Shown here piece after piece: positions 21,805-36,843 of a stretch of 64,000 nt of DNA. The stretch comes from Rhizobacter sp. (lineage in GTDB: Bacteria; Pseudomonadota; Gammaproteobacteria; Burkholderiales; Burkholderiaceae_C). The notes beneath the pieces were generated by a model. That model was not told the DNA's origin. It searched no databases and saw only the letters and a program-made list of their open reading frames with translations. Position 1 is the first letter of the stretch. Every line of letters begins with the position of its first letter. The position numbers were made by a program, and so were the translations under genes. Location of the stretch: positions 1 through 64,000 of the forward strand of contig JAMLIM010000001.1 in assembly GCA_023954175.1 (NCBI GenBank), in the 5' to 3' direction.

Positions 21805-22596
21805 CTAACCGGGCTTGCCCAGATCCTTGCGCAGTTGCTTGCCGACGGTCAGCATGAAGCGCAGCGTGTCCTGCGTTTCCGGGTCGCGCAGCATGCTCCA
21901 CAGGCCGCCGAAGCCACCCGGTGAAGCAGGCGCAGTGCGGCTGGTCGCCGCCGCCGCGTCGATCGACTCGAGCGTCTCCTGCAGCATCGCGAGGCGGCTC
22001 TCCAGCTTCGGCAGCGTCGCCGCGATCCGCTCCAGCGCGCCGCTGCCTTGGAGGTTCTCGAGCATCTTGACGATGTCTTCGGCACCGCCGCGGCTGAAGC
22101 GGTCGAGCAGCGACAGGCCGTTGCCCAGGGTGTCGGTCAGGCGGCCGACCATCTCGTCGGTCAGCGCGTCCTCGGCCGAACCGTAGACGCGCGCGAGCTT
22201 GACGAGGCGGTCCAGGTCGCCGTTGTTGACCATCTCGGCGATCGCCGGAATCGCGCGCGCGAGCCCGGCGCGGTTGACCTGATCCATCAGCGCGAGGCCG
22301 TCGCCCGCCGCCTGCGTCAGGCGGCCGATCATCTCGTCTGTCAACGCGTCCTCGGACGCGCCGTAGACGCGCGCGAGCTTGGCCAAGCGATCCAGGTCCC
22401 CGTTGTTGACGAGTTCGGTCAAGGCCGGGATCGCGCGCCCGAGCCCGGCGCGGTTGACCTGATCGAGCAACTCCATCGTGCTGCCCGCAGAGGACGCGAG
22501 GCGGCCGACCATCTCGTCGCTCAGCGCGTCGCGCGCCGCGGCGATCACGCGCTCGACCTCGACATCGACCGCATGCGTTTCTGTCCGATCGTTCAT
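21805..22596 (-). CDS. DUF1641 protein with three internal repeats
   Basis: A 263-residue soluble protein of the DUF1641 type. It contains three near-copies of a 54-residue block, each running through DEM[VI]GRL, then LLDQVNRAGL.RAIPA..E.VNNGDLDRL.KLARVYG.(A/S)EDALTDEM; copies begin about residues 26, 80 and 134. The last 70 residues differ and include a helix ending GKQLRKDLGK. DUF1641 proteins accompany sulfide:quinone oxidoreductases and formate dehydrogenases in other organisms, but their role is unknown. Here it lies 10 bp downstream of the SQR-like gene, so it is probably an accessory of that enzyme. Confidence 0.8.
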   Translation of the reverse strand: MNDRTETHAVDVEVERVIAAARDALSDEMVGRLASSAGSTMELLDQVNRAGLGRAIPALTELVNNGDLDRLAKLARVYGASEDALTDEMIGRLTQAAGDGLALMDQVNRAGLARAIPAIAEMVNNGDLDRLVKLARVYGSAEDALTDEMVGRLTDTLGNGLSLLDRFSRGGAEDIVKMLENLQGSGALERIAATLPKLESRLAMLQETLESIDAAAATSRTAPASPGGFGGLWSMLRDPETQDTLRFMLTVGKQLRKDLGKPG

Positions 22597-32045: not shown

Positions 32046-33026
32046 TCAGGTGACCGCCTGGTAGTAGAGATTTTGCGGATGGTTCGCCTGCGCGAAGAAG
32101 AACCAGCGCTCGGCGATGAGGCCGACGTACTGCGTCGCGAACGCAAGTGCGAGCACGGCGGGCGACGCACGCCACGAACCGGCCGCGAGCAGCAGCACCG
32201 GCAGCGCGAAGGCGAGCAGCAGGAAGACCCACTTCACGCCGCGCAGCGCGCCCGCCGAGCGGCCGTGAAAGAACTCGCGCGTGTTGAACGAGCCGCCCAT
32301 GAAGCCCATCGACTTCTGCACGATGCGCGGATGCTTGATGCCGATCGCGGTCTGCAGATTCGACATCGGTTTCAGCCGCGCATTGCGCACGAGCGACGCG
32401 ATGCGCGCGGCGGCGCCGAGCAGCGTGAGCGCGATCGCCCAGCCGGCGAGAAAGCGCATCAGTTCCGGCGCCGCCCATGACGCGAACGCGGCGGCGAGCG
32501 TGAAGCCCGATGCCGCGCCAAGCAGCGTGTAGTTCACCACCGTCAGCGGCGTCGCCCATTCGCGCAGGAAGCGCACGCCCGCATAGATCATCGCGGTGCA
32601 GACGAAGAGCGCCGCGGCGACGAGCGTGCCGAGCACACCGAGCGCGAAACTGGCGTCGATCACGATGCCCTTGCCCAGGGTCACGAGCGCCGGCGCGATA
32701 TCGAGCAGGTGCGCAACGCCATACCCGAACACGAGGCCCATGAACGCCGGCAGCACGATCACCTCGCGCGACAGCCACGAGGTGCGCCACATCGTGGCCG
32801 TGCGCCAAGCGCGCTCCGGCCGGCCGAGGTGAAAGAACGACGCGATCAGCCCCGCGACCAGCAAGACGAGCGCAGCCAGGCTGCCGTGCGCGTAGAACAG
32901 ATGCGCGTCCGGCGCCGGCAGCAGGCCGAACAGCGCGTAGACCTGCACCGTGAAGAGCGCCAGAAACAGACCCTGCCCGGCACCGACGAGCGTCGTGAGC
33001 AGGATCACCGACCAGGCGGGGTTCAT
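32046..33026 (-). CDS. soeC: SoeC, DmsC-type membrane subunit of sulfite dehydrogenase
   Basis: A 326-residue quinone-interacting membrane anchor of the DmsC type with eight predicted membrane segments (for example [26 protein letters not shown] and [22 protein letters not shown]). The [11 protein letters not shown] loop after the second helix is typical of SoeC/DmsC. It transfers electrons from SoeAB to the quinone pool. It follows soeB by 13 bp. Confidence 0.93.
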
Positions 33027-33039
33027 CGTGCTGCGCCCG

Positions 33040-33771
33040 CTACCAGGACATGACGTCGTCGAGCGACGGTTCGGACTTCGCCGGCTTCGGCAACAGGCCG
33101 TCCTTCTTCAGCGGATTGTCGGCGCGCGCGAGCTCGTCCTCGTGAATGTGCATCGGCGTCCTGCGCCGCGGCAGATAGTGGTTCGCCGGATGGGTGCCCC
33201 ACTCGGGCATCAGGGCATAGCCGGCGTTCTCCCGGATCGCGACCGATACCTCCGAGTCCGGGTCGTGGATGTCGCCGAACAGGCGTGCGCTGGTCGGGCA
33301 CGCGATGACGCAGGCCGGGCGCCGCTCGGCGGCGGGCAGCGCGGCGTCGTGGATGCGATCGACGCACAACGTGCACTTCGTCATCACCTTGCGCTCTTCG
33401 TCGAACTCGCGCGCGCCATAGGGGCAGGCCCAGCTGCAGTACTTGCAGCCGATGCACTTGTCGTAGTCGACGAGGACAATGCCGTCCTCGGCGCGCTTGT
33501 AGCTCGCGCCCGTCGGGCACACCGGCACGCAGGGCGGGTCCTCGCAGTGCAGGCAACTCTTCGGGAAATGCACCGTCTGCGTGTTCGGGTACTCGCCGAC
33601 CTCGAAGGTCTGCACGCGGTTGAAAAAGGTGCCGTTCGGGTCCGCGCCATAGGGGTTCAGATCGGCGAGCGCGCCGGCCGAACCCGAGGTGTTCCACTGC
33701 TTGCAGCTCGTCACGCAGGCGTGGCAGCCAACGCAGACGTTGAGGTCGATGACCAGCGCGAGCTGCGTCAC
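33040..33771 (-). CDS. soeB: SoeB, four-cluster iron-sulfur subunit of sulfite dehydrogenase
   Basis: The 243-residue electron-transfer subunit has four cysteine groups: CVGCHACVTSCKQW near residue 13, CLHCEDPPCVPVCP near 73, CIGCKYCSWACP near 105 and CTLCVDR...CVIACP. The start is a GTG (VTQLALVIDLN) with GGAG eight bases upstream. The whole initiation region is repeated five times upstream as overlapping minicistrons, so access of ribosomes to this start probably depends on coupled translation from soeA. No Tat signal, consistent with the cytoplasmic SoeABC type. Confidence 0.95.
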   Translation of the reverse strand: MTQLALVIDLNVCVGCHACVTSCKQWNTSGSAGALADLNPYGADPNGTFFNRVQTFEVGEYPNTQTVHFPKSCLHCEDPPCVPVCPTGASYKRAEDGIVLVDYDKCIGCKYCSWACPYGAREFDEERKVMTKCTLCVDRIHDAALPAAERRPACVIACPTSARLFGDIHDPDSEVSVAIRENAGYALMPEWGTHPANHYLPRRRTPMHIHEDELARADNPLKKDGLLPKPAKSEPSLDDVMSW

Positions 33772-33803
33772 AGCGAGCGCTCCAATGGCACGAGCTGGGT
33801 CAC
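33768..33803 (-). CDS. minicistron 5 (VTQLVPLERSL)
   Basis: Fifth 11-codon frame; its TGA overlaps the soeB GTG (33771-33769) by GTGA, and its GGAG serves as the soeB ribosome site. This couples soeB to the whole chain and through it to soeA. Confidence 0.5.
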   Translation of the reverse strand: MTQLVPLERSL

Positions 33804-33835
33804 AGCGAGCGCTCCAGTTGCACGAGCTGGGTCAC
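33800..33835 (-). CDS. minicistron 4 (VTQLVQLERSL)
   Basis: Fourth 11-codon frame, identical at the peptide level to minicistron 3, with GTGA overlaps at both ends. Confidence 0.45.
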   Translation of the reverse strand: MTQLVQLERSL

Positions 33836-33867
33836 AGCGAGCGCTCCAGTTGCACGAGCTGCGTCAC
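33832..33867 (-). CDS. minicistron 3 (VTQLVQLERSL)
   Basis: Third 11-codon frame; the same design as its neighbours with GTGA overlaps at both ends and an internal GGAG for the next start. Confidence 0.45.
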   Translation of the reverse strand: MTQLVQLERSL

Positions 33868-33899
33868 AGCGATCGCTCCAGTTCCACGGGCTGCGTCAC
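33864..33899 (-). CDS. minicistron 2 (VTQPVELERSL)
   Basis: Second 11-codon frame of the chain; GTG start overlapping the previous TGA by four bases, TGA overlapping the next GTG. Contains GGAG eight bases before the next start. Confidence 0.45.
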   Translation of the reverse strand: MTQPVELERSL

Positions 33900-33931
33900 A
33901 GCGAGCGCCCCCATTTCACGAGCCGGGTCAT
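33896..33931 (-). CDS. minicistron 1 (MTRLVKWGRSL) between soeA and soeB
   Basis: An 11-codon frame whose ATG overlaps the soeA stop (ATGA, 33931-33928) and whose TGA overlaps the GTG of the next minicistron (GTGA). It has only a weak GGGGG in front of the next start. It begins a chain of five such frames. Reading is exact from the sequence; translation is inferred. Confidence 0.5.
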   Translation of the reverse strand: MTRLVKWGRSL

Positions 33932-36843
33932 GGCGTCACCTTTCCGCCCGCCATCCAGCTGCGCTTCTTCGGCGCCGCGCCCATGCCCGGCGCGGGCTGC
34001 AGCGCCTCGAACTGCGGCCAGGTCTGCTGCGGCTCGCCGGCCTCGGCCGGATAGATGCGCACCCGCACGTCGTACCACGCGGCCTGGCCGGTGACGGGGT
34101 CCGAGTTCGAGATGCGCGCGCCGTCGTCGCCGATCAGTTCCTCGCTGATCAGGTGGTTGAGCAGGAAGCCGCGCTGCGACTCGTTGGCGTCGGGCGCGAG
34201 GTTCCACGCGCCGGCGGCCTTGCCGATCGCGTTCCAGGTCCAGACCGTACCCGGCTCGACCGCCTCGGAGTAGCTTGCGATGCAACGCACCTTGCCCCAC
34301 GGCGACTCGACCCACATCCAGCCGCCGTCAGCAATGCCGTACGCGCGTGCCACCGCCGGGTTGAGGTGCAGGTGGTTGTGTGCGTGGATCTGGCGCAGCC
34401 AGGCGTTCTGCGAATCCCAGGCGTGATACATCGCCATCGGGCGCTGCGTCACCGCCGCGAGCGGGTAGCGCGCGCGGTCGGTGCGCTGCGCCTCGAGCGG
34501 CTCGTAGTGAAACGGCAGCGGGTCGAAGAACTCGGCGATGCGCGCCTTCAGGTGCTCCGGCGGCTTGCGCGAGATGCCCCTTCCCTGCGCCGCGAGGCGG
34601 AACTTCTGCAGCACCTCGGAGTACAGGTGGATCAGGATCGGCTCGGCGTAGCGCTGGATGCGGTTGCGCTGCGACCATTCGAGATAGCCCTTGTTCCAGT
34701 TGCGCATGTACTGGTAGGAGGGCGGCAGCTTGTACTGGTAGACGCAGTTGTTCTGGGCGTACATCTCCCACTGGCGCGGGTTCGGCTCGCCGCGCATGAA
34801 CTTCTCGCCGCCCTTGCCGCGCCAGCCGGCCAGGAAGCCGATGCCCGAACCGGGTTCGGTCTCGTAGTTGACGACGAAGTCAGGGTAGTCGCGGAACCTG
34901 CGCGAGCCGTCGGGCCGCACGAAGGCGGGGAAGCCGAGCCGCCCTGCCAGCTCGATCAGCACCTCCTGGAACGGCTTGCACTCGCCCGTCGGCGGCAGCA
35001 CCGGGATGCGCACCGAATCGACCGGCCCCTCGAACTCGGAGATCGGCCGGTCGAGCATCGACATCACGTCATGCCGCTCGAGGTACGTGGTGTCGGGCAG
35101 CACGAGATCGGCGAATGCCGTCGTCTCCGACTGGAACGCATCGCAGACGACGAGAAAGGGGATCTTGTACTCGCCGCGCTTGTCGCCATCGACATGCCTG
35201 TCGTTGAGCATCCTGCGGACCTCGGACGTGTTCATCGTCGAGTTCCACGCCATGTTGGCCATGAAGATCATCAGCGTGTCGATCGGGTACGGGTCGCCGC
35301 GCCACGCGTTGGTGATGACGTTGTGCATCATGCCGTGCACCGACAGCGGGTACTCCCACGAGAACGCCTTGTCGATGCGCACCGGCGCGCCGTCGTCGTC
35401 GACGAAGAGGTCGTCCGGCTCGGCCGGCCAGCCGAGCGCGAGGCCGTCGAGCGGCGTGTTCGGCCGGATCGCGAGCGGCGTGTTGGGCGTCTTCGCGCAC
35501 GGCGGGATCGGACGCGGGAACGGCGCCTTGTGGCGAAAGCCCCCCGGCCGGTCGATCGTCCCAAGCAGGCTCATCAGGATCGCGAGCGAACGGATCGTGT
35601 GAAAGCCGTTGGAGTGCGCCGCCAGGCCCCGCATCGCGTGGAACGCGACCGGGTTGCCGGTGACGGTCGCGTGCTCGTGACCCCAGACGTCGGTCCACGG
35701 GATCGGCAGCTCGATCTTCTGGTCGCGCGCGGTGATGCCCATCTCGTGCGCCAGGCGGCGGATCACGTCGGCCGGGATGCCGGTGATGCCTTCGGCCCAC
35801 TCGGGCGTGTAGGCTTCGACGCGCTCCTTCAACAACTGGAACGCGGGCTTGACCGGCGTGCCGTCCGGGAGCTTGAAGTCGCCGAGCAGGAAGGGGTCGC
35901 AGCCCTCGGTGTGGGTGACGACCGGCCGGTTGCTCGCGCGGTCCCACCAGAGCTTGTTCTGCGGGTCGAAGCAGCCCTCTTCTTCCGGCACCTCGGTGCG
36001 CACGAACATGCCGAACTCGTCGTGCACGTCGTCCAGGTTCACGAGCTGGCCGGCGTTGGTGTAGCGCACGAGGAAGTCGCGGTCGTACAGGCCGAGCGCG
36101 ATCAACTCGTGGATCAGCGCCAGCAGCAGCGCGCCATCGGTGCCGGGGCGGATCGCAATCCATTCGTCGGCGATCGCCGAGTAGCCGCTGCGCACCGGGT
36201 TGATCGAGATGAAGCGCCCGCCGTCGCGCTTGAACTTCGCGATCGCGATCTTCAGCGGGTTGCTGTGATGATCCTCCGCGGTGCCGATCATCACGAACAG
36301 GCGCGCGCGCTCGAGATCCGGGCCGCCGAACTCCCAGAACGAGCCGCCGATCGTGTAGATCATCCCGGCCGCCATGTTGACCGAGCAGAAGCCGCCGTGC
36401 GCCGCATAGTTGGGCGTGCCGAACTGGCGCGCGAAGAGGCCGGTGAGCGCCTGCATCTGGTCGCGCCCGGTGAAGAGCGCGAACTGCTTCGGGTCGGTCG
36501 CGCGCAGGTGGCGCAGGCGATCCTCCAGCATGGCGAAGGCTTCGTCCCACGAGATCGGCTCGAACTCGCCCGCGCCGCGCTCGCTGCCGGGCTTGCGCCT
36601 GAGCGGCCGGGTGAGGCGCGCCGGCGAGTACTGCTTCATGATGCCCGACGAGCCCTTCGCGCACAGCACGCCCTTGTTCAGCGGATGCTTCGGGTTGCCT
36701 TCGATGTAGCGCACCTCGCCGTCGCGCAGATGGACGCGGATGCCGCAGCGGCAGGCGCACATGTAGCAGGTGGTCGTCTTGACCTCGACCGTCGCGCCGG
36801 GCAGTGGCTTGGCGAGCGGATCGTGCAGCGGGGGGGCTGGCAT
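33928..36843 (-). CDS. soeA: SoeA, molybdopterin subunit of cytoplasmic sulfite dehydrogenase
   Basis: A 971-residue enzyme of the DMSO-reductase family that oxidizes sulfite to sulfate with bis-MGD molybdenum cofactor. Near the N terminus CYMCACRCGIRVHLRDGE plus a later C in GVLCAKGSSG hold a 4Fe-4S cluster; cofactor-contact segments include NPVRSGYSA and GFLLNHLISEEL. There is no Tat signal, so the enzyme is cytoplasmic, as known for SoeABC of purple sulfur bacteria. The stop overlaps the first minicistron by ATGA. First gene of soeA-soeB-soeC-sat, with the palindromic operator candidate 110 bp upstream. Confidence 0.94.
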   Translation of the reverse strand: MPAPPLHDPLAKPLPGATVEVKTTTCYMCACRCGIRVHLRDGEVRYIEGNPKHPLNKGVLCAKGSSGIMKQYSPARLTRPLRRKPGSERGAGEFEPISWDEAFAMLEDRLRHLRATDPKQFALFTGRDQMQALTGLFARQFGTPNYAAHGGFCSVNMAAGMIYTIGGSFWEFGGPDLERARLFVMIGTAEDHHSNPLKIAIAKFKRDGGRFISINPVRSGYSAIADEWIAIRPGTDGALLLALIHELIALGLYDRDFLVRYTNAGQLVNLDDVHDEFGMFVRTEVPEEEGCFDPQNKLWWDRASNRPVVTHTEGCDPFLLGDFKLPDGTPVKPAFQLLKERVEAYTPEWAEGITGIPADVIRRLAHEMGITARDQKIELPIPWTDVWGHEHATVTGNPVAFHAMRGLAAHSNGFHTIRSLAILMSLLGTIDRPGGFRHKAPFPRPIPPCAKTPNTPLAIRPNTPLDGLALGWPAEPDDLFVDDDGAPVRIDKAFSWEYPLSVHGMMHNVITNAWRGDPYPIDTLMIFMANMAWNSTMNTSEVRRMLNDRHVDGDKRGEYKIPFLVVCDAFQSETTAFADLVLPDTTYLERHDVMSMLDRPISEFEGPVDSVRIPVLPPTGECKPFQEVLIELAGRLGFPAFVRPDGSRRFRDYPDFVVNYETEPGSGIGFLAGWRGKGGEKFMRGEPNPRQWEMYAQNNCVYQYKLPPSYQYMRNWNKGYLEWSQRNRIQRYAEPILIHLYSEVLQKFRLAAQGRGISRKPPEHLKARIAEFFDPLPFHYEPLEAQRTDRARYPLAAVTQRPMAMYHAWDSQNAWLRQIHAHNHLHLNPAVARAYGIADGGWMWVESPWGKVRCIASYSEAVEPGTVWTWNAIGKAAGAWNLAPDANESQRGFLLNHLISEELIGDDGARISNSDPVTGQAAWYDVRVRIYPAEAGEPQQTWPQFEALQPAPGMGAAPKKRSWMAGGKVTP

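Follow-up and report, generated by a model that had tools for sequence, protein, structure and literature searches.

Among the described systems closest to the array reported here are the mycobacterial interspersed repetitive units (MIRUs), which are described as seemingly mobile repeats that insert at start codons, with an internal open reading frame (ORF) coupled to the following gene at -4 (PMC12548453). MIRUs lie at 41 locations in one genome (PMC2734929), and the gap between senX3 and regX3 contains, depending on the strain, either three 77-bp MIRUs or two of 77 bp plus one of 53 bp (PMC4213456). One proposed role of MIRU-type repeats is to make translation differ between the genes of an operon (PMC2734929, citing a 1997 paper), and the senX3-regX3 MIRU region is reported to have promoter activity, with regX3 expression independent of senX3 (PMC4213456). 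Reinitiation downstream of a stop codon has been described as sensitive to distance: in three E. coli gene pairs a gap of 38 nt left it 80-90% lower or absent, about 20 nt from stop to start almost abolished it in six pairs from two species, and in two pairs the final 15 nt of the gene in front were enough (PMC10666635). The same source reports that short overlaps are enriched among genes for subunits of heteromeric complexes (PMC10666635). Dependence on a Shine-Dalgarno motif differs from pair to pair, and the efficiency of coupling is said still to need quantification in diverse bacteria and archaea (PMC6728339).

The window (the whole 64,000-nt stretch of Rhizobacter sp. DNA that we analysed) contains three adjacent minus-strand genes encoding a molybdopterin oxidoreductase of 971 residues (soeA-like, 33928..36843; Pfam PF00384, PF04879 and PF01568), a 4Fe-4S protein of 243 residues with a GTG start (soeB-like, 33040..33771; PF13247) and a DmsC-type membrane anchor of 326 residues (soeC-like, 32046..33026; PF04976). 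Both gene order and Pfam domain content matched SoeABC (molybdopterin A, 4Fe-4S B, DmsC/NrfD-like C). NCBIfam searches gave no model at cut-off for soeA or soeB among the matches listed (the best 25 of 26 and 25 of 39, respectively), the best listed score for the soeA product being to PhsA (227.8 of 694 bits), and they gave no family for the soeC product. The soe names are our working assumption, resting on the initial annotation of this DNA and on gene context, in that the ORF 3' of soeC is presumably ATP-sulfurylase-like; it is probable that the soeA and soeB products are subunits of a sulfite-oxidising enzyme.

Between soeA and soeB we found five tandem 32-bp units (33772..33931, minus strand; consensus GTGACCCAGCTCGTGCAACTGGAGCGCTCGCT), which TRF reported as a period of 32 with 5.4 copies and a score of 253 at 33759-33930. 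The initial annotation had read this array as soeA-ATGA-1-GTGA-2-GTGA-3-GTGA-4-GTGA-5-GTGA-soeB, and that reading was correct: the ORF coordinates confirm five overlapping 11-codon minicistrons, all on the minus strand, with the products MTRLVKWGRSL* (minicistron 1, 33896..33931), VTQPVELERSL* (2, 33864..33899), VTQLVQLERSL* (3, 33832..33867, and likewise 4, 33800..33835) and VTQLVPLERSL* (5, 33768..33803). Every joint is a -4 nt stop/start overlap, from the TGA stop of soeA, which overlaps the ATG of minicistron 1, to the TGA of minicistron 5, which overlaps the GTG of soeB. Some details needed correction. GTG opens minicistrons 2-5 as had been claimed, but unit 1 opens with ATG. The GGAG placed eight bases ahead of each next start is present 8 nt 5' of the soeB GTG (33780..33783, minus strand) and ahead of minicistrons 5, 4 and 3 (33812-33815, 33844-33847 and 33876-33879, minus strand), but in unit 1, ahead of minicistron 2, the corresponding bases are GGGG (33908-33911, minus strand). 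The units had also been called copies of the soeB initiation region, and here the match to the soeB reading frame covers their first 13 nt, the remaining 19 nt being the Shine-Dalgarno part that precedes soeB. Minicistron 1 may resemble the start of MazE/AbrB-type antitoxins, a likeness that we take as chance because units 2-5 are without it. The source genome is a 3.9-Mb draft in 148 contigs, and the true unit number could differ from the assembled five; a five-fold assembly echo of a single unit is unlikely because the units differ from one another, with 13 differences from their consensus. A search of the same genome at E 0.001 placed the array at one location. Elsewhere in the window, a 180-bp tandem repeat at 22136-22530 lies within a 263-aa ORF (21805-22596, minus strand) and yields a 60-residue internal repeat.

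Taken alone, the array is weak evidence of function, because the ladder is automatic, chance chains exist and the base differences avoid breaking the chain no more than expected of random ones. As 32 is 2 mod 3, any 32-bp repeat with an RTGA and no further stop will form such a ladder. In random 64-kb sequence matched to the window in composition, six of 20 strands had an RTGA chain of at least five ORFs (5-40 codons), so the length of the chain is not extraordinary by itself; the extraordinary features are its exact seating from the soeA stop to the soeB start and the repeat itself. When the 13 differences were scattered at random the chain survived in 14% of trials, and selection on the chain as judged from the array's own base differences was thus not significant (P 0.14; 0.33 excluding unit 1).

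For comparison we assembled relatives of soeB, taking the best 80 of 547 from named genomes and others from genomes of the window's genus, family, order and class plus three further families. Sampling went deeper in the families of G665 and G645 because of the carriers there, and the sample is enriched for carrier families; by our count 24 matched places were left out, 20 of them the weak tail of one search. From 372 loci we examined 359, setting aside twelve motif loci and a duplicate of the window, and these gave 345 parsed soeA/soeB junctions (14 were unparsed), or 318 after removal of near-identical ones. The most frequent joint among these 318 non-redundant junctions was a -4 overlap to the aligned soeB start (149); the distance was -1 in 10 and some other value below 8 in 15, the aligned position held no start codon in 55, and inserts of at least 8 nt separated the genes in 89. 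Minicistrons of 11 codons in a strict stop/start chain were found at 21 of the 318 junctions, with the window counted, and locus L130 had GTG units of the same period plus a 31-codon bridge. The initial annotation had proposed counting the units in close relatives, where the number does vary (0, 1, 2, 3 or 5 minicistrons). Chains with more than one minicistron were those of the window (five), of L127, L219 and L089 (three each, the L089 chain having a sequence unlike the other units) and of L230 and L224 (two each); the ladder ORFs had lengths of 14, 11 and 11 codons in L127, 34, 13 and 11 in L219, and 11 and 11 in L230.

Aligned in 23 rows (22 loci, with L130 entered twice), the 32-nt units showed a common pattern of RTGAC.CAGCTCG, a variable middle, GGAG, and GC.CGC 5' of the next start. 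Bases 26-27 and the wobble position 30 were conserved, whereas the middle and the residue of codon 9 varied. Because the wobble position is kept while the codon 9 residue changes, the conservation looks like that of a start region rather than of a peptide.

The inserts themselves allowed a test of reading frame, for which we used inserts of at least 8 nt with a start codon overlapping the soeA stop (60 of the 89; 37 ATG, 14 GTG and 9 TTG). The start-to-start distance P was 2 mod 3 in 46 of the 60 (binomial 8e-12, kinship ignored) and 1 or 0 mod 3 in seven each, and a complete stop/start chain led to soeB in 50. The window (P of 160 nt, 1 mod 3) is one of the seven with that remainder, and is chained via its five units. 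With length-jittered dinucleotide shuffles as the reference, 31 of 32 inserts of 8-59 nt were chained where 9.9 were expected, as were 18 of 27 inserts of 60-400 nt where 4.3 were expected (6.2 with length fixed); at fixed length the expectation for the short inserts rose to 27.4 for the same 31 (P 0.017). The signal in short inserts is almost wholly one of length, and in long inserts one of open frame too. Even the 538-nt insert of L139 was chained, and with multiples of 32 excluded 29 of 38 inserts were chained against 7.9 expected. Kinship was handled by grouping of the inserts alone, and at 60% identity 20 of 27 groups were 2 mod 3 (binomial 2e-5), with the first member chained in 23. Bridging ORFs also crossed unlike inserts with perfect inverted repeats (30 codons with a 21-bp repeat in L040, 27 codons with 22 bp in L044), and ORFs ending on the soeB start spanned further inverted-repeat inserts in L071 (37 codons, 18 bp) and L240 (43 codons, 14 bp). 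The ten unchained inserts were the short one of L052 and the long ones of L023, L101, L149, L190, L215, L231, L283, L285 and L313. This pattern suggests selection for an unbroken chain of translation from soeA to soeB, and the termination-reinitiation that the initial annotation had envisaged from one gene to the other is backed by the comparison, in that inserts keep the stop/start chain far above chance.

Inserts that follow other soeA stops, i.e., those without an overlapping start, showed no excess of the bridging frame (14, 6 and 9 of the 29 at 0, 1 and 2 mod 3, respectively), and three of them were chained, against 0.7 to 1.5 expected. Likewise there was no such excess in 173 soeB/soeC gaps after ordinary stops (62, 60 and 51 at 0, 1 and 2 mod 3). 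For soeB/soeC inserts on overlapping starts, 12 of 23 were 2 mod 3 (P 0.048), and the chain effect may not be confined to soeA/soeB, the soeB/soeC junction being perhaps weakly alike. The 55 junctions with no start codon at the aligned position were left out of the frame test, and 28 of them had an in-frame SoeB extension of at least 4 codons starting on the soeA stop; the 0 mod 3 class is under-counted because of these, and the comparison of 2 with 1 mod 3 still stands at 46 to 7. Such an in-frame extension from the soeA stop is also a way of translating continuously, at 0 mod 3. In these 28 loci (e.g., L027, L351 and L372) the N-terminal extension of SoeB was 5 to 58 codons long, and several extensions resembled WLKDLL...GETLAKQLALVIDL.

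A FastTree phylogeny covering 312 of the 318 junctions required no fewer than 19 changes of state to account for the 22 carriers, which implies frequent gain, loss or transfer. L187, with one unit, and L236, with none, are separated by a tree distance of 0.02, and L127, with three minicistrons, lies 0.04 from L126 and L220, which have none. With repeats of up to 13 bp, loss by recombination would be easy, and unit number has probably changed by recombination between repeats. The soeB start read CAGCTCGC in 17 of 22 loci with 11-codon units compared with 34 of 149 plain overlaps (Fisher 1e-6), and one genus includes loci whose minicistron start, judged by eye, is more like the soeB start of relatives lacking units than their present soeB start is, as if the insert had brought a new soeB start along. 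The exact motif GGAGNGCTCGCNRTGA had three matches in the window's own genome, all within the array. We considered a mobile element and rejected it, as the exact 16-base unit motif was not scattered in 15 genomes (it was present in five), a narrow test in that the exact motif also misses the soe units of several carriers; outside soe it had three matches in two genomes, one at the joint of two ORFs and none in tandem units. Spread on plasmids was considered and set aside; plasmid records with SoeB relatives numbered 13, the best four among the 10 listed being those of Paraburkholderia and Burkholderia (79-81% identity). SoeB had no match at E 1e-40 in four other genomes of the window's genus (G001-G004), and the operon looks patchy within the genus.

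From the comparison of junctions, we think it likely that the array acts as a ribosome relay preserving the translational coupling of soeA to soeB. In scattered relatives, 32 nt or some other insert lies between the two genes, and the start codon on the soeA stop opens a minicistron whose own stop falls on the start of soeB; the window has five such units in tandem. A ribosome ending soeA would restart on the overlapping ATG, translate 11 codons, terminate on the TGA inside the next GTGA and restart again, and so on until soeB, with the GGAG or GGGG eight bases ahead presumably helping each restart from the second start on. The peptides would be by-products, and the chain would be kept by selection because soeB would otherwise be uncoupled from soeA. 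As reinitiation is distance-dependent, an untranslated gap of 156 nt should uncouple soeB, and a chain of 11-codon ORFs should not. RNA structure was tried as an explanation and rejected, the 22 carriers lying near 156 plain overlaps (mean -9.67 versus -8.50). The fold of the window's soeB start region was strong (-15.1 kcal/mol for 40 nt), and start-codon accessibility within the array was not distinctive. We found no known RNA family in 33000-34600 at E 1, and a simple scan of 33600-34200 gave no sigma-70-like promoter and no terminator.

The initial annotation had gone further than coupling and proposed a copy-number attenuator, a special case of the relay in which a share of ribosomes is lost at each restart and the unit number, tuned by slippage, sets the SoeA:SoeB ratio. 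In its favour, the minicistron number in strict chains varies (0, 1, 2, 3 or 5), even between close loci, and inside the window's array the starts are GTG codons with a short core; against it, the three subunits form one complex and fresh ribosomes may load at inner units, and we regard the attenuator as a tentative proposal at best. We hold similarly low expectations of a neutral tandem repeat, a reading on which the soeB start region was multiplied by slippage and the ladder follows from arithmetic, as a side effect of a 32-bp unit that contains RTGA. The automatic ladder at 2 mod 3, the not unlikely survival of the chain under the observed differences (0.14) and the chance chains in 6 of 20 random strands would all fit this origin for the window taken singly, but the relatives speak against it, in that their inserts stay chained although they vary widely in length and are unlike in sequence (29 of 38 with multiples of 32 excluded, against 7.9 expected).

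It is improbable that soeB starts independently of soeA, with the units serving as spare ribosome-binding sites or as carriers of promoters. Every start except the first does have a GGAG or GGGG core 8 nt ahead of it, conservation in the units of 22 loci takes in the GGAG core and the bases preceding the start, and the report that regX3 is expressed independently of senX3 across its MIRU region (PMC4213456) cautions against regarding such repeats as couplers only. Spare sites, however, need no frames that end on the next start, so the frame bias of the inserts contradicts them, and the simple scan of 33600-34200 offered no sigma-70-like promoter that the units might carry. A function of the 11-residue peptides themselves seems very improbable: similar peptides do recur (TQL...E.SL or SR), but their middle and codon 9 residues vary while bases 26-27 and the wobble base 30 are conserved, a conservation pattern by which we ruled this candidate out, and many bridges have unlike sequence and other lengths.

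We also scanned the order (379 genomes) for other arrays, with a pattern of four RTGA spaced at a period of 32, which gave matches in 14 genomes including the window's. Sorted by eye, seven of these had arrays of shorter units (8 or 16 bp, some irregular; G092, G367, G372, G395, G548, G618 and G639), four had single or imperfect matches (G456, G473, G493 and G502), and two, G436 and G315, had further arrays of 32-bp units; the reversed control pattern was found in at least four genomes among the matches listed. The G436 array (L386, near 1500-1640) is a 32-bp tandem array with GTGA and no evident coupled junction. In G315 (L382:726-1688, minus strand) the space between an rsmG-like ORF and a parA-like gene, names that are our working assumption from the sequences, holds tandem 32-bp copies of the parA-like gene's start region. 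Here the rsmG-like stop is followed by 14 nt, a 32-codon ORF and two 11-codon minicistrons, with ATGA joints leading to the parA-like start, and one copy has lost its TGA, the longer ORF reading through it. Relatives of this ladder were not found, the family comprising that one genome. A length of 32 nt is about one ribosome footprint. It is possible, though we hold the idea only loosely, that tandem copies of start regions form a general, fast-evolving relay of independent origins, which would couple at any unit number and leave downstream output tunable; if so, start-region arrays would arise independently in different operons, as between soeA and soeB and at the G315 parA-like gene.

Across many species, the inserts at this single junction amount to a natural experiment, one that indicates selection for unbroken translation between two subunit genes and so provides independent evidence for termination-reinitiation and against long post-termination scanning. 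A ladder of equal steps would also make the efficiency of a single restart measurable, from the decay of output with unit number.

The initial annotation knew of no described case of such a ladder between subunits of an enzyme, and this needs qualifying: the architecture is already known in kind, because MIRUs have been described with an ORF coupled at -4 and with tandem copies in variable number (PMC12548453, PMC4213456). Among open-licence papers, our literature search found no 32-bp ladder built in part from the downstream start, at an enzyme-subunit junction and with comparative evidence of selection on the chain. Like MIRUs, the soe units are short repeats at a gene junction with an internal ORF at -4 to the downstream gene, although they also overlap the upstream stop; both occur as tandem copies in variable number, MIRUs between strains and the soe units among relatives (0 to 5 minicistrons), and by our arithmetic the MIRU lengths of 77 and 53 are 2 mod 3, as is 32. 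The two differ in that MIRUs are scattered and seemingly mobile whereas the soe array has one place in its own genome, and in that the first 13 nt of a soe unit copy the start of the following gene. Compared by length and architecture, the soe unit is also shorter (32 bp versus 40-100 bp), and its array lies in another phylum, between genes for enzyme subunits. The senX3-regX3 units differ further in that transcription there is reported not to depend on the gene in front (PMC4213456). Each joint of the soe ladder is an overlap of the kind found in pairs coupled at -4 nt (ATGA), but here six such joints stand in series, four of them between minicistrons. With short upstream ORFs the soe minicistrons would share a product that is perhaps just a restarting ribosome (PMC12548453); those ORFs are described as feeding a gene from the front, whereas the soe minicistrons, inside an operon, would pass ribosomes from gene to gene.
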